A stretch of DNA of 41,261 nucleotides from a virus. The position numbers and the translations under genes were made by a program. This document shows, piece by piece, positions 2,436 through 41,261 of this stretch. Numbering within the stretch: the stretch's first letter is position 1; the number at the start of each line of letters is the position of its first letter. The notes under the pieces are model-generated. The model did not search any database, was not told the origin of the DNA, and saw only the letters and a list, made by a program, of their open reading frames with translations. The DNA is taken from IMG/VR virus record IMGVR_UViG_3300042564_001545, positions 1 to 41,261 of that record; one strand, given 5' to 3'.

Positions 2436-2525
2436 ATAGAAGTAGGGCCAATACTGACCAAAAAACCAAAATCGCCCAATTGGGTTCGTGTCGTTTAAAA
2501 TCAAAGACTTAGCCGAAAAGTGCAA

Positions 2526-2695
2526 TAGTCAAGTTTGACTATGTAATCAACGATTTCAATGGATTAGATTAGCTACGCGCGTTGGTTCCCTATGGTGCTG
2601 CGCAAATACTTTACGGGCTGCGCAGCACCCGACCAAGGGTGCAGGCCGCTTGCGCTGCCTGCCCCCGGCTGCGGTCCAATGGGTGGATTTAGGCT
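2526..2695 (+). ncRNA. Structured element, copy A
   Basis: It begins with the palindrome TAGTCAA-GT-TTGACTA (2526-2541). An 11-bp inverted repeat follows (2594-2604 with 2619-2629, 14-nt loop), then a 6-bp hairpin GCACCC-GACCAA-GGGTGC (2625-2642), then GGCCGCTTGC (2644-2653), and it ends near TTAGGCT (2689-2695). The two stems share bases and are mutually exclusive. All these landmarks recur in the same order at 3937-4088, with compensatory changes in the 6-bp stem. It could be an RNA, or a hairpin used as DNA; the strand is inferred from shared orientation only. Confidence 0.5.
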
Positions 2696-2824
2696 GTTTT
2701 GTATTGGCTATACTTAAAGGCCAGAAAGCAGGGGAAAAAGGGCGATAAGGTGCGCAGCGCAGGCCCCGCGATAAGGGGCGGGGCTGCGTTGGCCGAAACA
2801 GCGCGAAAGAAGGCCGCTAAGGGG

Positions 2825-2848
2825 CCAAGGCAGGGCAGGGGGCGGGGG
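2825..2848. repeat. Direct repeat, right copy, flanking the AAA/VWA cassette
   Basis: CCAAGGCAGGGCAGG then GGGCGGGGG, identical to 178-205 apart from a 4-bp CAGG indel. It lies in non-coding DNA, about 460 bases beyond the start of the cassette. Confidence 0.7.
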
Positions 2849-2965
2849 TGACATAGGGCAGGCGATAGATAGCGTTGTGCGGGGCTGTTTTGGGGCTGTT
2901 CTGAAAAGCAATACCAAAGCAATACCAATTGATTGCATGTGATATCATAACGCTTGCGCCTGCCC

Positions 2966-3065
2966 GCCTGCGTCGCCCTGCGTCGCTGCCTGCCTGCGTC
3001 GCTGCCTGCGTCGCTGCCTGCGTCGCTGCCTGCCTGCCTGCGTCGCTGCCTGCCTGCGTCGCTGC
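2966..3065. repeat. CTGCGTCGC tandem array
   Basis: Seven copies of CTGCGTCGC start at 2968, 2978, 2994, 3006, 3018, 3038 and 3054, separated by TGC or TGCC units. The reverse complement of 3033-3055 matches 121-143, the inner edge of the left terminal array, at 22 of 23 bases. This array is thus an inverted relative of the terminal repeats. Frames through it encode only Leu-Pro-Ala-Ser low complexity. Confidence 0.85.
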
Positions 3066-3068
3066 ACC

Positions 3069-3203
3069 AGTCAACCCGCGACGCGACGCCAAGTCAGGGC
3101 CAGTCAGGGCGACGCGACGCCAAGTCAGGGCAAGTCAGCACGAGTCAGGGCAATGGAAAAGCCAAGGAAAACAAGGGCTTGCGCCAAGTCAGGGCCGCAG
3201 TCA
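3069..3203. repeat. AGTCA(GG) iteron-like cluster
   Basis: Eight AGTCA words on the plus strand start at 3069, 3092, 3102, 3123, 3133, 3143, 3187 and 3199; most are followed by GGG or GGC. Several are spaced 10 bases apart, one helical turn. Within it a 23-base unit is repeated exactly (3078-3100 and 3109-3131). This arrangement resembles iterons bound by a replication initiator or repressor. Confidence 0.65.
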
Positions 3204-3289
3204 GGAGCTGGATCGGTTGCGCGGACCCCCCACGGGGGTCGGTCGGCGGGGGGCAGGATGATTTTGGTGGTGTAATAGGCTGCGCGTCT

Positions 3290-3315
3290 AAAATTTTTCC
3301 GTCGCTAAAAATTTT
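3290..3315. promoter_or_regulatory. AT-rich perfect inverted repeat
   Basis: AAAATTTTT (3290-3298) and AAAAATTTT (3307-3315) around an 8-base centre, in an otherwise GC-rich genome. It could be a duplex-unwinding element or a hairpin. It sits between the iteron-like cluster and the HNH gene. Confidence 0.5.
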
Positions 3316-3330
3316 CTGTTGTTTTTGTAG

Positions 3331-3363
3331 TGTATAAACAGTAAATTCGATGTGTATAAACAG
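3331..3363 (+). repeat. Paired TGTATAAACAG boxes upstream of the HNH gene
   Basis: Exact 11-bp copies at 3331-3341 and 3353-3363, offset by 22 bases (two helical turns). Each contains TATAAA, a -10-like hexamer, but I see no convincing -35 at the right distance. The second copy runs into the AGGAAA ribosome-binding site of the HNH gene. Confidence 0.6.
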
Positions 3364-3373
3364 GAAAACGGCC

Positions 3374-3898
3374 ATGATCGAACCAAAGGACTTGCACAAG
3401 TATCTGCGCTACTACCCAGAGACCGGGGTGTTTGTCTGGAAGCTACGGACGCCTAAGACTATGCCTGACTGGTCGGAAGCCCAGATCGCGGCGTGGAACA
3501 AACGCTTTGCCAGAAAGCGGGCGCTGACTTCGCTGCGCACCTACGGATACAAGGGTGGGCGAATCCTGACTGAAGCCTACTTTGCGCACCGCGTGGCGTG
3601 GGCCATGACTTACGGGGAATGGCCGAATCACATCGACCACGTCAACGGCGACTCTGCTGACAACCGCATCGACAACCTGCGGTCTGTTCAGCCCGGAGAA
3701 AATCTGCGGAACAGAAAAATCCCGTCAAACAGCCCGCTTGGCATCATGGGAGTGCGGCGGGAACGCAAAAATACCTACGTTGCAACGCTAGGGAGCGAAG
3801 TCATTGGTAGGTTCAGGACTGTTGAAGAAGCCACTGCTGCGCGTAAGGCTGCGGAAGAAGCGCACGGGGGCTACCACCCTAACCACGGAAAACGGTAA
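3374..3898 (+). CDS. HNH endonuclease with AP2-like DNA-binding tail
   Basis: 174 aa. The ATG at 3374 is preceded at proper distance by AGGAAA, so I prefer it to the upstream frame extension. The core is AHRVAWAMTYGEWP, then HIDHVNGD and DNRIDNLR, the HNH_3 pattern of phage free-standing homing nucleases. The C-terminal part (GIMGVRRERKNTYVATLGS...GRFRTVEEATAARKAAEEAHG) looks like an AP2-type DNA-binding domain. Such genes are selfish and cut near their own insertion site. It stands between the two copies of the structured element, consistent with insertion or duplication there. Confidence 0.9.
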   Translation: MIEPKDLHKYLRYYPETGVFVWKLRTPKTMPDWSEAQIAAWNKRFARKRALTSLRTYGYKGGRILTEAYFAHRVAWAMTYGEWPNHIDHVNGDSADNRIDNLRSVQPGENLRNRKIPSNSPLGIMGVRRERKNTYVATLGSEVIGRFRTVEEATAARKAAEEAHGGYHPNHGKR

Positions 3899-3936
3899 TA
3901 AAATTAACATGATACGAGATGATTGCAGTCTGTGCA

Positions 3937-4088
3937 AAGTCAAGTTTGACTATGTAACAGGCAAAACTCCTCGCGCGCAGCACCATAGAGCGCTGCGCAA
4001 GCACTGTACGGGCTGCGCAGTCCACGACCAAGTGGACGGCGCGCGTGGCCGCTTGCCGTCCCAGTGGACAGGGCGATAAAGTTAGGCT
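3937..4088 (+). ncRNA. Structured element, copy B
   Basis: It has the same landmarks as copy A. The palindrome AGTCAA-GT-TTGACT (3938-3951) opens the element and 20 bases from 3938 are identical to copy A. CTGCGCA (3993-3999) pairs with TGCGCAG (4014-4020) around a 14-nt loop. A 6-bp hairpin GTCCAC-GACCAA-GTGGAC (4020-4037) follows, then GGCCGCTTGC (4047-4056) and TTAGGCT (4082-4088). The hairpin keeps the loop GACCAA exactly while its stem bases change in pairs relative to copy A. It ends in the predicted promoter of the virion operon. RNA or DNA function is unresolved. Confidence 0.5.
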
Positions 4089-4093
4089 AGACT
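4065..4093 (+). promoter_or_regulatory. Predicted promoter of the rightward packaging/virion operon
   Basis: -35 TGGACA (4065-4070), 17-bp spacer, -10 TAGACT (4088-4093), immediately upstream of the first gene of the operon. It matches sigma70 at 5/6 and 4/6 positions with ideal spacing. It overlaps the end of structured element copy B. Confidence 0.5.
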
Positions 4094-4119: not shown

Positions 4120-4512
4120 ATGGGATCGAAGTTAGTGCTTGTGCCACAAAAGGGCGGCGATGACGAAATTCAGCGGGCGGCGATCAAGAGCCGCTACGCG
4201 ATGGACGAGACGAGCCGGAAGCTCCTCAAGGAGACCGGGCGGCGAGCGGCGATGAAGCTGTTTGAATTTATGAACGACAGCGACAAGTGGGATCAGGTCG
4301 GCCCTCGAAACCAGATCGCACTTCTGGAGCTTGCGTTGAACCGTGCGTTTGGCCGCGTTGAGACTGTGACTGCGGACGAGAAGATTGCGGACGACAAGGA
4401 CAATGTGGCGGGTGCGCTGCCAAGTCATCTGCGGCTGTTGGCGGGAAAGTTGGACCTGCCGGAACTGCGCGGAGCGAAGGCTGCGACGAAAGTTGACGGC
4501 GAGGACGATTGA
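4120..4512 (+). CDS. Candidate small terminase subunit
   Basis: 130 aa, starting at the ATG at 4120 behind a consensus AGGAGG (4106-4111, 8-base spacing). Alpha-helical and charged, with a central segment GRRAAMKLFEFMNDSDKWDQVGP and QIALLELALNRAFGRVET, and an acidic C-terminus. It is the first gene of the packaging operon, four genes ahead of the large terminase, which suits a DNA-recognition terminase subunit. I recognise no specific family motif, so the function is inferred from position and size. Confidence 0.45.
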   Translation: MGSKLVLVPQKGGDDEIQRAAIKSRYAMDETSRKLLKETGRRAAMKLFEFMNDSDKWDQVGPRNQIALLELALNRAFGRVETVTADEKIADDKDNVAGALPSHLRLLAGKLDLPELRGAKAATKVDGEDD

Positions 4513-5394: not shown

Positions 5395-6826
5395 GCGCGC
5401 CCAAGTGAGCAGCGACGACGAGCTTTATTCTGCTCTTGTGGCGAAGTGTGCTGTAGATCGGTACTTCTTCGTCACTGAGATTTTGGGCGTCGAGAAAGTC
5501 GAAGACTGGCAGCGCGAGACTATGGCTGCTTTGGACGCAGGTGAGACGCGGATTTCAATCAGGTCTGGGAACGGTGTTGGGAAGACGGCGCTCTGTGCGT
5601 GGCTGTCTGTCCACTACCTGCTGTTCCGCGACGACGTGAAAATTCCTGTGACTGCTCCGTCCAGTTCGCAGTTGAAGGACGGTTTGATCCCAGAGACGAA
5701 GCGCTGGATTTCGCGGCTTCCTGACTTCTTGCGTGTGCAGATTGAGATGACGGAAGACCGCATCCGGCGCACTCCGGGCGGCGACAACAACTTCATCTCG
5801 TTCAGAACTGCCCGCGCTGACTCGCCGGAAGCTCTTGCTGGTATCCACGCCAGCCACGTCATGGCGATTGTGGACGAAGCGAGCGGTGTGCCTGACATCG
5901 TCTTTGAGTTTGCCGAAGGCACGATGTCGTCGGCGGGTTCTATCTTCATCCTGATCGGCAACCCGACGCGCCCGACTGGCTACTTCCACAAGACGCATAC
6001 GATCCTCAAGCACAAGTGGTTCACCAAAAAAGTGTCCTCTTTCGACTCCTCGCGTGTGACGCAGGATTTCGTCGATAACATCGCCCTGACTTACGGCACA
6101 GGGTCGAATACCTACCGCTACAAGGTTCTTGGGGAGTTTCCTGAGAGCGTCGCTGACACAGTCATTCCGAAGGAGTTGATTGATGGCGCGTATGGACGAG
6201 ACGTTGAGCCTCTGCGCGGCGGCGTCAGGATTTGGGGTGTGGACCCCGGACGAGGCGGCGACCCTACAGGTTTCTGTGTGCGGAACGAAAACACTGTCGA
6301 AGAACTTGTCGAGTGGTACGACGCCGACCTCATGCGAGTCACAGGCCGCGTCAAAGAGAAGTGGGACAGAACGGCGGACAGAGAGCGGCCTGAAGCCATA
6401 TACGTTGACTCCATCGGTCTTGGTGCCGGAGTTGCCGACCGCCTGCGAGAACTGGGCCTTCCGGCTGTTGACGTAAACGTCGCTGAGTCGCCGTCCATGA
6501 AAGACAGGTTTACCCGCTTGCGGGCAGAACTGTGGTACGCAGTCAGGGACTGGCTTGAGCAGCGCAATGTGGCGTTCCCGAAGGACTTGGCTTTGGCAGA
6601 AAAGCTGATGGCCGAACTTGCGGAGCCTCAAGCGACCTTCACATCGACTGGCAAAGCCGATGTCGAGTCAAAGAGCGCCATGAAACAGCGTGGGGTTCGG
6701 TCGCCAAACTTGGCTGACGCTCTGTGCCTGACTTTCGGCGGTGGCGGTGCCATTGCAGTCGGTCGGTCGAATGGCCGCAATAGCTGGAAAAAGCCCCTGA
6801 ACTGGGTCGCTCCCTCTATTTACTGA
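5384..6826 (+). CDS. terL: Terminase large subunit
   Basis: 480 aa from the GTG at 5384; a TTG at 5375 is the alternative start. The N-terminal ATPase has Walker A SGNGVGKTA (Lys near 67) and Walker B MAIVDEAS (Asp-Glu near 164-165). The C-terminal RNase H-like nuclease has IWGVDPGRGGDP (Asp near 287), IYVDSIGLG (Asp near 342) and PNLADALCL (Asp near 445). It drives DNA translocation into the procapsid through the portal and cuts the genome. Length is normal for the family. Confidence 0.95.
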   Translation: MSSERAQVSSDDELYSALVAKCAVDRYFFVTEILGVEKVEDWQRETMAALDAGETRISIRSGNGVGKTALCAWLSVHYLLFRDDVKIPVTAPSSSQLKDGLIPETKRWISRLPDFLRVQIEMTEDRIRRTPGGDNNFISFRTARADSPEALAGIHASHVMAIVDEASGVPDIVFEFAEGTMSSAGSIFILIGNPTRPTGYFHKTHTILKHKWFTKKVSSFDSSRVTQDFVDNIALTYGTGSNTYRYKVLGEFPESVADTVIPKELIDGAYGRDVEPLRGGVRIWGVDPGRGGDPTGFCVRNENTVEELVEWYDADLMRVTGRVKEKWDRTADRERPEAIYVDSIGLGAGVADRLRELGLPAVDVNVAESPSMKDRFTRLRAELWYAVRDWLEQRNVAFPKDLALAEKLMAELAEPQATFTSTGKADVESKSAMKQRGVRSPNLADALCLTFGGGGAIAVGRSNGRNSWKKPLNWVAPSIY

Positions 6827-25604: not shown

Positions 25605-28292
25605 ATGGCGGACGGAGAAAAGAAGCAGGGCGTGATTCGTGGTCGCGTTATCTCTGTGCCGCAGCCGAAAGCTCAGGCACCTGCCGCAGAGCCTGAAAGC
25701 ACTCCGGGCCGCTTCTTGGCCCGGTCGGCTATTGACGCTCTCGGCTCGCCTCTTGACTTGCTGACTTACCCAGTGCGCGGACCTGCGCGGGCGCTGGGCT
25801 TTGAGATGGACGCGCCGACCACAGCTATCGCAGACATCATGCGGGGCCTTGGTATCGGCATTGCGGAAGAAGGAGAAGTCGCTAACACTCTTGGCGAGCA
25901 AGTCGCCTCTGGCGTAGGTTCGGCGGCTGGTTTCCTCGTCCCCGGTCTTGGTGCGGCTAGAGCGGCGCAAGCAGTTGGTGGCCCTGTTGCCAGCGCTATT
26001 GGGCGCGCGGTGACTGCCCCGTTCACGGCGGCACCTGTGCGCGCAACTGGCGCAGAATTGGCGGCGGGCGCAGCGGCAGGTTACGGCGGGGCGCAAGCGA
26101 AAGAGGCCGCTGTTGCAGGCGGCTACGGGCCGTTCGGCCAAAACCTCGCGCAAGCCAGTGGTGAACTGCTTGGAGGTCTGACGGGGGCGGGTCTTGGGTC
26201 AGCCGTTAGTGCTGCGGGACGCGGCATTGAGCGCACTATGGGTGCTGTTGCAGACCTTATGCCAGTTGCAGGACCAATGTATCGCGGCGCTAAAGATATA
26301 CTCCAAGGCATCGCCGATCCTGCCAACATGGCGTTCCGCCAAGCCTCTGAAGCAGTACGCGGCACAGTTGTAGACCCACTTGCGGCAGCAATGGCGGTCG
26401 ATCAGCAGAGCCTGACTGGGCTTCCTCCGATGCTCGCGCCCCGCGAGTCAAAGCTCATGGAACTGGAGCAGTCGCTTCTGCGCGACAATCCAGAACTGCG
26501 GGCCTTGCGTGACCGTCAGCGCGCTGCTGCGACGAAAGCGACCGAAGAAATGCTGACTGGCATGGCTCCGGGCGACGTGGCCGCGACCAAGGGTTTCTTC
26601 CAGTCTCAAATCGACACCAACAGGCAGCAACTCGACACGCTGCTGGCAAAGGCGCAATCCGACGCAGAAACCGCGCTGACTCGCGCTGGTCCGCGCACTG
26701 GCCGCACTCCTGTCGAAAACTCTGTCGCGTTCCGGCAAGAACTCGACAAAGCCTACTCTGCCGCTCAAAACAAAGAGAAGCAGTTGTGGGGCGATGTTCC
26801 GATCACGTTTGTCGCGCGCACAAACCAAAGCCAAAACGCATACCGTGCTGCTATGGAGCGGCTGGGCGAGACTGGGGCTGACTTGATGTCGGCTCGCGCT
26901 ACGCGGTTTTTGGACCCGAAGTCGGGCGACTTTCTTGGAGACAGCGCAAGCGTCAAGGAAATCCAAGGTCTGCGCTCGCTACTTCTTGAAGAAGCGCGCA
27001 ATTTGCGGGCCTCTGGTAACGACCGTGCTGCTGGCGCGGCGGAGACTGTTGCTGCTGGGTTGCTGAACGACATGGACTCTGTCCCCGGTGTCGGCGGGCC
27101 TCTTGAAGTCGCGCGTCAATTTAGCCGCGATATGTCGGTCAAGTTTGAGACCGGAACCATCGGCAACGTATTGCGCACCACTAAGGGCGGCGTCCCTGCT
27201 GTAGCCCCTGAAGACACTCTGCGCCGCCTGCTAGGGACGCGCGCAGAGCCGCTGGCAGTGCGCACTAGCGAGATGGAAGCGGCAACTAGCGGATCGCGCC
27301 CTGCTGCTGAAGCCGCGTCCGAGTATATGCGCGGGCAATTCCTAGAAGCTGCTATCGACCCGTCTGGCCAAGTCAAGCTGCCCGCAGCCCAGCGCTACGT
27401 TGCTGCGCGCGAGGACATGCTGACTCGCTACCCAGCGCTCGGTAAATTGTTTGACGACGCCATCACTGCTGCCCGCTCTGCGCAGGAAACTGGGACAACG
27501 GTGGAGGCGCAGTTGGCTGACTTGGCGGCGTCGCCGCAGGCCAAATTCACTGGGTCGAAGATCAACCGCGAATTTGACTCAGTCATCAATAGCAAGAACC
27601 CGGAGTTTGAGGCGTCTGAACTGGCCGCAATCGCCCAGCAAGACCAGACTGGTGCGGCGACTCAAGGTCTGCGGCGCGCTGCCGTTGACTACTTGCTGCG
27701 CAAAACCCTTGAGCAGACCAAGGCGGGCCGCGAAGCTACAGGCACCAGACTCGCGGCGGTCTTGGATGACCCCAATGCCGTCGTTGCTATGTCGCAATTC
27801 TTCTCGCCAGCGGAGATGCAGAATGTTCGCACTCTAGCCGACGAACTGCGTGTGTGGCAGCAGAGCGCTGGAGCCAATGTCGAGAAGCCGAACCTCGGCA
27901 ACTTGTTCCAACAACTGCTAGTCGTGGGGGCTGGTGTTGCTGGTGCAAGAGCTGGCCGCGCAGTTTCTAGAGGTCAGGACATTCAGACTCCGGCTATCGG
28001 GGCTAGTAAGGCGCGCGGGCTTATGGGTCGCTTGTCTACCGCAGGCGCGCAAAAGCTGCTGACTGACGCGATCAGCGACCCAGACCTGATGCGCGCTCTG
28101 CTCATTGGTCGGCGTCCTGAACAAGCAGAATTTAGCCGCGCTGAAGCCGTGCTGTCGCTGTGGATGCAGAACAACATGGCGCAGCTTACGGACGATACCG
28201 AAGACCCGATTGCCGCGTTCTCGCGCGCTCTTGGGATAGTAGACAAAAAGCCGCTTGAACTGACCATCGACAATCCAAGCGGCACTGACTAA
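25605..28292 (+). CDS. Large internal virion / ejection protein
   Basis: 895 aa with AAGGAG before the ATG. The N-terminal 200 residues are Gly/Ala-rich and hydrophobic (GVGSAAGFLVPGLGAARA, ATGAELAAGAAAGYGG, LLGGLTGAGLGSAVSA), consistent with a membrane-inserting ejection channel. The rest is helical and charged. It is the last rightward gene and overlaps the convergent helicase gene by 4 bases. Function inferred from size, position and composition. Confidence 0.75.
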   Translation: MADGEKKQGVIRGRVISVPQPKAQAPAAEPESTPGRFLARSAIDALGSPLDLLTYPVRGPARALGFEMDAPTTAIADIMRGLGIGIAEEGEVANTLGEQVASGVGSAAGFLVPGLGAARAAQAVGGPVASAIGRAVTAPFTAAPVRATGAELAAGAAAGYGGAQAKEAAVAGGYGPFGQNLAQASGELLGGLTGAGLGSAVSAAGRGIERTMGAVADLMPVAGPMYRGAKDILQGIADPANMAFRQASEAVRGTVVDPLAAAMAVDQQSLTGLPPMLAPRESKLMELEQSLLRDNPELRALRDRQRAAATKATEEMLTGMAPGDVAATKGFFQSQIDTNRQQLDTLLAKAQSDAETALTRAGPRTGRTPVENSVAFRQELDKAYSAAQNKEKQLWGDVPITFVARTNQSQNAYRAAMERLGETGADLMSARATRFLDPKSGDFLGDSASVKEIQGLRSLLLEEARNLRASGNDRAAGAAETVAAGLLNDMDSVPGVGGPLEVARQFSRDMSVKFETGTIGNVLRTTKGGVPAVAPEDTLRRLLGTRAEPLAVRTSEMEAATSGSRPAAEAASEYMRGQFLEAAIDPSGQVKLPAAQRYVAAREDMLTRYPALGKLFDDAITAARSAQETGTTVEAQLADLAASPQAKFTGSKINREFDSVINSKNPEFEASELAAIAQQDQTGAATQGLRRAAVDYLLRKTLEQTKAGREATGTRLAAVLDDPNAVVAMSQFFSPAEMQNVRTLADELRVWQQSAGANVEKPNLGNLFQQLLVVGAGVAGARAGRAVSRGQDIQTPAIGASKARGLMGRLSTAGAQKLLTDAISDPDLMRALLIGRRPEQAEFSRAEAVLSLWMQNNMAQLTDDTEDPIAAFSRALGIVDKKPLELTIDNPSGTD
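28250..28283. terminator. Inverted repeat at the convergent operon junction
   Basis: GCCGCTTG (28250-28257) and CAAGCGGC (28276-28283), 8-bp perfect arms with an 18-base loop, inside the last codons of the rightward operon where it meets the leftward operon. No T-run is present. Possibly a weak bidirectional terminator or chance. Confidence 0.3.
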
Positions 28293-30358
28293 GCGAATTT
28301 GCGGATGTGGAAGAACCGAATGGTCGGGAGGCCACTTCGGTTCGTTCCCGTCTCCACTGTGATATTATATCCGCTTTCCGTGTTGCGTCCGTTCACAGGG
28401 ATCAGGCTGGTGAAGAAGCCGCTCAGGTTCGTGGCGTTGGAGCGCAGCGCCGCTTGGTTGTCATACAGCCCCGTCCCTGCCAGCTTCTCTTTCAGGTGGT
28501 CGTGAACATCGCGGCAATTCCACGCGCCTGTACCAAGCTCTGCAATCGCCTCGAACAGCGGCTTGTAGGTCACTTCCAGCTTCAGCGCCTTCACTGCCTC
28601 GTCCTCGCCGCCACTGACAGCCCGGATGCCCGGAATAAGCACGGGCGCAGTGATAGTGTAGCCTTGGTTACTGACGCCCAGCGTCTCAGTCAGCACGTCG
28701 AAGGTGAACACCTTGTCGTCGTCGATAGAGCGCGCCATGAGGATGCGAAGCTCTAGCTGATCTGTCTCCGGGTTTTTCGCCAAAGTCAGCAGCGTGTCAG
28801 GCTCTGCCTGAATGTTGCTGGAGCCGCGCGGCTGGTTCCCGTTCTTCGTGTTGTGGTGGATGATGACAACGGCGGCTTGGACGCCTGCGTCTCTGATCTT
28901 GGCGAGAATGTCGAACACTGCCGATGTGTCTTCGACGCTGTTCTGATCGCCACCGGGCATTGCTTTCGTCAGCGTGTCGATGACAATGACGCCCAGCTTC
29001 TTCTCGCCTTCATTCTGCCACCAAATGTCCGTGGCCTTGATCTGCTCTACCAGATTGGCTCTGGCGGTCTCGTCCAGCAGGTTCATGCCTTCTTCGAGCG
29101 TGTAGAACGGGAACGACTTGGCGTCGGTGTAGAGCTTGCCTTCTGGATCGTGGAACTTCTTCCACGCCACAAGCCGCTTGCGGATCGCAGTCTGGCTCTC
29201 AAGGGCGAAGTAGAGGACAGGGCGGCGCTCAGTCACAGTCAGATTGTCGTCGAAATTCAGCCCTGCGGCGATGTGCATGGCGAGGGTCTGGCTCACCAGT
29301 GTCTTCCCTGCTTTCGGATCGGCGGAAATCAGGGTGACTTCGTTGGCATGGTAGATCGGGTGCATGATGAAATCCTCAGTCAGAACGTCCAGTTGTTCGT
29401 GTCCGAAGTAGCCGCGCCTGCCAGCGAAGGGGAAGTTGGTGCCGTAGGATTCGGCCAGCACCACAGGCAGTTGGGAAGTTTCCATCCTGACTGCCGGGAA
29501 CATGGCCGCAGCCATCTGCTTGATTGTGTCTGTCGCTGCCTCGCGCAGCCCGTCTGTCTTGGCGGCGACGTTAAACTTGGCGTGGCCGCTGCCGACGATG
29601 CGGCTCAGTTCTCCGCTCCTGTCGGCCATAATCGGCGTCCAGCGGTCGTGGCGGGGGTGCTGCGGGCTGGCGGCGACGGAAGCGTTCATCAGCCCCAGCA
29701 GCGTGGCCTGCACGGCTTCCAGAGGCTCCCCAGCCGATGACAGCTTGGCCGCGATCTGGGTTAGACTGTCGTGGAAGTCGTCGCCGCTCAGGACGTTGGC
29801 CTTCAGCACGTCCAATGTCGTTGCTGACTGCGCAGAGCGCGCTGCCTTCAGGCTCTCCACCAGCTTCGCTGGCGCGTCAGACAGCCCACGGCTTTCGACT
29901 GTGTAGCCGGGTGACGGCGGCAGGATGATGTAACCGCCCTCGCCTTTGACTTCGACGCCCTTGGACGGCTTACAGTTCGGAAACTCCGTAGCGCGGAACA
30001 GATAGTGCCGCCCGCCGTTCCGTGTGGCGTGGACCCGCGTGGGCGGAAGCATACCGCTACGCTCTAGCCCCGCCACATACGCCTTCGCTGCCTCGCCTGC
30101 CTCACCGGGCTTGTAGGTGTCAGCGTCGATAGCGAAGATACCAGAGGCCGCACCCATGCGGCCCCCGATGCCATGCAGACGCGCACCAGCATCCTTGAAC
30201 ATCGCTTCGATGGTCTCAGGGTCGGTGCTGGCGTCGTAGAAGCCGTTCTTAGTCAGGGGGCGCTTGTCTTCGCCTGTCGGAAAGACAGGGATACCAGCCT
30301 CGGCCCACTCAATTGCAGCTTCGATCAGATCGGCGGCTACAGGATTTTGCACGTTCAT
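28289..30358 (-). CDS. Prim-pol / RepA-like helicase fusion
   Basis: 689 aa. The N-terminal archaeo-eukaryotic primase domain (about 1-150) has GIPVFPTGEDKRP, IFAIDAD (Asp 78 and 80), GGRHYLF (His 118) and VKGEGGYIILPPS. The C-terminal RecA-like ATPase (AAA_25/RepA type) has Walker A ADPKAGKT (346-353), ALES near 387 and Walker B LGVIVIDTL (Asp 461), then IIHHNTKNG. Primase and replicative helicase are thus fused, as in many phages and plasmids. It begins 4 bases inside the resolvase gene, so it is translationally coupled. Confidence 0.9.
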   Translation of the reverse strand: MNVQNPVAADLIEAAIEWAEAGIPVFPTGEDKRPLTKNGFYDASTDPETIEAMFKDAGARLHGIGGRMGAASGIFAIDADTYKPGEAGEAAKAYVAGLERSGMLPPTRVHATRNGGRHYLFRATEFPNCKPSKGVEVKGEGGYIILPPSPGYTVESRGLSDAPAKLVESLKAARSAQSATTLDVLKANVLSGDDFHDSLTQIAAKLSSAGEPLEAVQATLLGLMNASVAASPQHPRHDRWTPIMADRSGELSRIVGSGHAKFNVAAKTDGLREAATDTIKQMAAAMFPAVRMETSQLPVVLAESYGTNFPFAGRRGYFGHEQLDVLTEDFIMHPIYHANEVTLISADPKAGKTLVSQTLAMHIAAGLNFDDNLTVTERRPVLYFALESQTAIRKRLVAWKKFHDPEGKLYTDAKSFPFYTLEEGMNLLDETARANLVEQIKATDIWWQNEGEKKLGVIVIDTLTKAMPGGDQNSVEDTSAVFDILAKIRDAGVQAAVVIIHHNTKNGNQPRGSSNIQAEPDTLLTLAKNPETDQLELRILMARSIDDDKVFTFDVLTETLGVSNQGYTITAPVLIPGIRAVSGGEDEAVKALKLEVTYKPLFEAIAELGTGAWNCRDVHDHLKEKLAGTGLYDNQAALRSNATNLSGFFTSLIPVNGRNTESGYNITVETGTNRSGLPTIRFFHIRKFA

Positions 30359-41097: not shown

Positions 41098-41127
41098 GGT
41101 ATTGAATTGGTCTGGTTTTGGGCGGCA

Positions 41128-41261
41128 GGCCGCAGGCAGGCCGCAGGCAGGCCGCAGGCAGGCCGCAGGCAGGCCGCAGGCAGGCCGCAGGCAGGCCGCA
41201 GGCAGGCCGCAGGCAGGCCGCAGGCAGGCCGCAGGCAGGCCGCAGGCAGGCCGCAGGCAGG
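41128..41261. repeat. Terminal 11-bp tandem array (right)
   Basis: Twelve perfect copies of GGCCGCAGGCA plus two bases, in the same orientation as the left array. The last unit is cut after GG, so the two contig ends are not in phase if simply joined, and true copy number cannot be known from this sequence. Confidence 0.95.

Follow-up and report, generated by a model that had tools for sequence, protein, structure and literature searches.

The stretch of DNA analysed here, hereafter called the window, is 41,261 nt long and corresponds to positions 1 to 41,261 of the IMG/VR virus record IMGVR_UViG_3300042564_001545. The same 11-bp tandem repeat, GGCCGCAGGCA, is found at 1-143 and at 41124-41261; the record probably represents a circular assembly that was opened within this repeat. 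The main divergent non-coding region lies between leftward genes, which include an AAA ATPase gene (1072-2274), and the rightward structural block, and it contains two diverged copies of a hairpin element, copy A (2526-2695) and copy B (3937-4088). The replication genes, at the far end, share the strand of the leftward genes. At 207-2274 of the minus strand the AAA_5 ATPase (CobS-like PHROG) adjoins a DUF7192 protein, first in the leftward operon. A probable leftward early promoter, recognised by eye (TTGACT-N18-TATACC, minus strand, 2413-2460), is located inside a AGTCAGTCA..TGACTGACT dyad, which suggests that dyads of the AGTCAA type are operators. On the rightward side, the product of the gene immediately before TerL (5405-6826) contains a domain like that of Tad2 (Thoeris anti-defence 2, PF11195; 5149-5394, plus strand). 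The ORF at 4120-4512 had no family match and could be taken for the small terminase by position only.

All parts of the duplicated hairpin element that were named in the original prediction were present, each in its place, in both copies (Table 1). The element is larger than first described, as it also includes a third copy of the 3' arm of hairpin H2, with its own partner, and a shared upstream region, H0. Hairpin H1 abuts H2; H1 is the part conserved in sequence (GCGC..TTTAY..GCGC) and H2 the hairpin conserved in structure. Both H2 hairpins are followed by GGCCGCTTGC and TTAGGCT. A 14-nt perfect inverted repeat links 2590-2603, before H1 of copy A, with 3975-3988 in H0 of copy B (CTATGGTGCTGCGC / GCGCAGCACCATAG).

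Table 1 Features of the hairpin element and its surroundings in the window (a, b, a' and b' are arms)
Feature	Position	Strand	Remarks
Imperfect 18-bp dyad before copy A	2525..2542	.	ATAGTCAAGTTTGACTAT; 16/18 positions symmetric
H0, copy A	2576..2604	.	GCGC-bounded stretch with CCTATGG, ahead of H1; from alignment, in relatives too
H1, copy A	2598..2625	.	CTGCGCA, 14-nt loop, TGCGCAG; TTTAC kept in loop
H2, copy A	2625..2642	.	GCACCC-GACCAA-GGGTGC (a, b)
Third-arm region, copy A	2658..2686	.	CCTGCCCCC (2658-2666), partner of b; b' GGGTGG (2681-2686)
Iteron-like direct repeats	3092..3195	+	AGTCAGGGC; between copies
Conserved GC block	3221..3267	+	GACCCCCC..GGGGGGCAG..ATTTTG; between copies
HNH endonuclease gene	3374..3898	+	Inserted between copies, outside element
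Dyad before copy B	3936..3953	.	AAAGTCAAGTTTGACTAT
H0, copy B	3973..3999	.	GCGCAGCACCATAGAGCGCTGCGC region; from alignment
H1, copy B	3993..4020	.	CTGCGCA, 14-nt loop, TGCGCAG
H2, copy B	4020..4037	.	GTCCAC-GACCAA-GTGGAC (a, b)
H3, copy B	4058..4069	.	a' GTCCC; b' GTGGAC, the third arm copy
Late promoter candidate	4065..4093	+	TGGACA-N17-TAGACT; -35 box in b'
Primase-polymerase (PF09250) fused to RepA-type helicase (AAA_25)	28289..30358	-	Proposed reader of the element

The sequence AGTCAAGTTTGACTATGTAA, described earlier as a 20-base palindromic start, is an exact duplicate found at 2527-2546 and 3938-3957 and nowhere else in the window (two occurrences, none expected), but it represents an imperfect dyad of 18 bp. 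The dyad before copy A is probably an operator. Since the AGTCAA dyad is missing before copy B in the more distant relatives (group 2, below), the dyad was placed outside the core module. At this position, upstream of copy B, the loci L008, L011, L013 and L021 have a dyad ACTACT..AGTAGT instead, whose outer bases differ on both sides between phages. Single 6-bp hairpins are common, with 86 in the window and 49-74 in shuffled sequences, so that a lone hairpin of this size is uninformative and the significance of the element rests on its duplication and on its presence in relatives.

With TerL as the query 21 IMG/VR loci were obtained, and an alignment-based search added more distant ones; a TerL scan of genome contigs gave none. 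All eight additional near-group IMG/VR contigs that cover the region carried both copies, with order and orientation unchanged. Three of these contigs (L005, L006, L007; group 1) closely resemble the window, with 77-78 % identity in the protein whose gene follows copy B, and in the other five (L008, L011, L013, L015, L021; group 2) this protein is approximately 60 % identical. Copy B was also seen in L009 and L010, and copy A in L139. When entire records were searched, each of the five long ones in this group had two good matches. The distance from A to B varied from 741 to 1469 nt. HNH coding sequence between the copies is present in the window and in L005, the latter judged by spacing and by the sequence preceding copy B, and is absent from L006 and L007; the duplication is independent of it.

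No match above the gathering score was found in Rfam, either with curated thresholds or in E-value mode, and a search for tRNA and tmRNA genes gave none. At the DNA level the region matched cultured phages in only two short segments of approximately 50 nt, both inside the HNH gene. The pattern GCGCAGTCCAC-N-GTGGAC was also searched over IMG/VR, and the new matches inspected were without the remaining parts of the element. Copies A and B are a real, conserved and uncatalogued structured element, which a group of uncultivated phages carries in paired form.

A covariance model, R1, was built from H1 and H2. In R1, 96.6 % of the cells were paired and five pairs had changed on both sides, and none of 500 shuffles was as good. 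The model recovered group-2 A copies that were absent from it, weakly (15-18 bits, E 0.02-0.09), at the expected places. The H2 hairpin in these copies was GTGAC-CTATA-GTCAC (L011, L139), GTGTC-CTATA-GACAC (L013) or GTGGC-CTATA-GCCAC (L008, L021), the loop being constant and one pair altered on both sides. Covariation and strand preference were tallied by script on arms set by hand, because MAFFT alignments (all copies on either strand, or H2 alone) misaligned the 5- and 6-bp arms. Across six arm variants of H2, all 30 core pairs were Watson-Crick, the true pairing was unique among 720 re-pairings, and one pair occurred as all four Watson-Crick types. These changes bear out the selection on a fold, with compensatory changes, that had been predicted. 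They clearly indicate that the fold has been kept by evolution.

The 3' arm of H2 recurs a few tens of nucleotides downstream and co-varies with the hairpin, the match to its own H2 being 30/30 (1 of 720 re-pairings); over the full arm, copy A of the window matches at 5 of 6 positions. This co-variation of the third arm copy implies that an alternative pairing is also conserved, in which arm a would pair either locally, with b, or distantly, with b'. The minimum-energy folds of copy B in L005 and L006 adopt the long form. A different switch, between H1 and H2, had been suggested from the bases they share; this sharing was confirmed in copy A of the window and partly, by inspection, in copy A of L021, but is not conserved. 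A pairing of the H1 loop with the H2 loop (CTTTA with TAAAG) was seen in some group-1 copies only and was dropped.

Concerted change of the arms could also result from a mutation bias, namely template switching at imperfect palindromes, with the fold itself under little selection. Among close relatives every arm co-changes, the third copy included, and the ACTACT..AGTAGT dyad before copy B of group 2 has likewise changed on both sides. However, no copy has an imperfect H2, and the two groups share H1 and the number and order of the parts, despite the divergence of the adjacent protein. Preservation of the whole module speaks against template switching as the sole cause, and this explanation appears very improbable.

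The non-Watson-Crick appositions in H1 were, on the plus strand, six A.C and no G.T, which correspond to G.U or G.T when the minus strand is read. For 13 of the 16 copies the minimum energy was lower on the minus strand (mean z -3.5, compared with -2.5 for the plus strand). One inner H1 pair, in copy A of L011, favours the opposite strand by inspection, and the H2 core has no G.U in 30 cells on either strand. Together these data weakly support the minus strand as the likelier structured (template) strand, the copies being related and the independent events few.

The original prediction allowed for either a new phage RNA or a DNA hairpin; the novelty agrees with the Rfam result, but RNA and DNA are not discriminated by the data. 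It is credible, though less likely than the reading favoured below, that A and B are structured RNAs that act through their fold, for instance as cis-acting antiterminators like the put RNAs of HK022 or as some other regulatory leader, in which case they would more likely be transcribed leftward. The putL and putR sites of HK022 also occur twice per genome, are approximately 70 nt long and consist of two adjacent stem-loops (PMC9378689), the energies and H1 mismatches given above favour the minus strand, and the alternation between a:b and a:b' resembles a switch. However, no convincing, conserved upstream promoter and no conserved downstream terminator were identified on either strand in the alignments, no Rfam family matched, and the H2 core is free of G.U. 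In addition, the put RNAs follow two early promoters, whereas A and B face one way and copy B is upstream of the late promoter.

This late promoter candidate is sigma-70-like (TGGACA-N17/18-TATACT, with TAGACT in the window) and was found in all ten copy-B sequences checked. It begins in the last arm of copy B and stops just ahead of the first late gene, so that the predicted transcript would exclude the hairpins, which weakens the suggestion that the element is a leader or packaging RNA of the terminase genes. In all the phages except that of the window, copy A is followed by no promoter; a promoter role can therefore not account for both copies.

The dyads could instead be DNA operators, with a regulator binding H1, H2 or H3 by the late promoter and copy A providing a second site, perhaps with looping. 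This would agree with the location of the -35 box in H3 of copy B in all ten copies, with the similarity of the H1 sequences between the two copies within one genome and with the operator-like length of H2. The half-sites differ, however, between A and B of one genome and between near-identical phages, while complementarity stays perfect, and the spacing and order of the half-sites are unequal in H2 and H3. With half-sites and spacings so different a single dimeric protein could not read them all, and operators are considered an unlikely explanation.

Packaging was also considered, since the element is on both sides of the conserved GC block and copy B adjoins the terminase genes; A and B might thus be packaging or end-maturation signals flanking the genome end, acting in terminase recognition or in a T7-like hairpin step. 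Many distant relatives also have the GC block upstream of TerL, and it matches the place where the 357-bp terminal repeat of Sinorhizobium phage phiM5 is annotated to end; it is the probable terminase cut site of this lineage. In 58 distant TerL loci, which have the cut block or the terminase, R1 gave no match to the element (best E 0.86). The element was thus not detected with the terminase in these distant relatives, and the conserved packaging feature is the GC block itself, a better candidate for the packaging cut. A role of A and B as packaging signals is accordingly quite improbable.

In every genome A and B flank the array of iteron-like AGTCAGGGC repeats, with exactly two good copies per genome. 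The AGTCAGGGC units have a single orientation, also in the relatives, and are often 10-11 bp apart; they are sparse in L006. GC skew marks no origin. The sequence TTTATCCCC resembles a DnaA box in some copies only and was dropped as a candidate. The fused primase-polymerase/RepA-type helicase is 72-81 % identical among those genomes with A and B that were tested. It had no sequence match in the PDB, and an AlphaFold model (mean pLDDT 40.5) was left unused.

The reading favoured here, tentatively and at somewhat less than an even chance, is that A and B are cis-acting single-strand initiation hairpins of the phage replication origin. It is preferred because the studied origins for this class of enzyme are hairpins, and it is supported by the covariation of the three arm copies and by the flanking of the iterons by the pair. 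The iteron region would open and expose A and B as single-stranded DNA, the exposed elements would fold and be recognised by the phage primase-polymerase/RepA-type helicase, and DNA synthesis would start at them, as at ssiA and ssiB of RSF1010 or at the stem-loop of pRN1. Against this, A and B face the same way, and the co-occurrence with the enzyme is confined to close relatives and so is not independent evidence. In the phages MW202711 and MW202867, which encode related RepA-like proteins, no comparable duplicated hairpins were seen in the non-coding regions inspected.

In RSF1010 (IncQ), the hairpins ssiA and ssiB are recognised by RepB' (PMC4434180). The oriV of this plasmid is similar to the present region in having two short hairpin sites with a conserved flank beside iterons, and the replicon encodes a primase of the archaeo-eukaryotic type and a RepA-type hexameric helicase. 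RSF1010, however, has one site on each strand, whereas A and B share their orientation in all genomes; each site here has a third arm copy in addition to its two abutting hairpins, a single PF09250-type protein combines primase and helicase, and no RepC-like protein was identified. The pRN1 origin is a stem-loop of approximately 100 nt whose structure is kept but whose sequence is not, with a similar one in phage BIP-1 (PMC4234260). A and B likewise have a conserved structure with little sequence conservation and could form a long stem-loop (a:b'), and the replication protein is in both cases a fused primase-polymerase/helicase. The helicase of ORF904, the primase-polymerase-helicase of pRN1, however, is of SF3 type and here it is AAA_25, and in pRN1 a single stem-loop directly follows the replication gene, whereas here there are two elements with iterons, located at 2.5-4.1 kb, and the gene is distant (28.3-30.4 kb). 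The primase-polymerase of phage NrS-1 also has two recognition sites per genome (PMC7102993), but these are an 8-nt sequence motif, one per strand, for which no hairpin is described.

As one tested feature of each was lacking, A and B were assigned neither to the RSF1010 nor to the pRN1 family. As hairpin-type replication initiation sites they would probably represent a new form. A more specific proposal, which is possible but less likely than the general one, is a bipartite origin of a new kind, in which two same-facing bistable hairpin elements, each with three co-evolving arm copies and with a local hairpin and a long stem-loop that exclude each other, flank the iterons and the probable cut site and are read by the fused primase-polymerase/RepA-type helicase.

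The origins on which phage primase-polymerases act are, to our knowledge, poorly known, the worked examples being pRN1 and RSF1010, with a short motif only for NrS-1. The strongly covarying pair described here, present throughout a phage group, provides a concrete substrate for testing how these enzymes select start sites on a double-stranded phage genome. The stacking of putative replication, late transcription and packaging signals within 1.5 kb also becomes a testable arrangement. Were A and B to act as RNA instead, they would constitute a new class of structured RNA outside Rfam.
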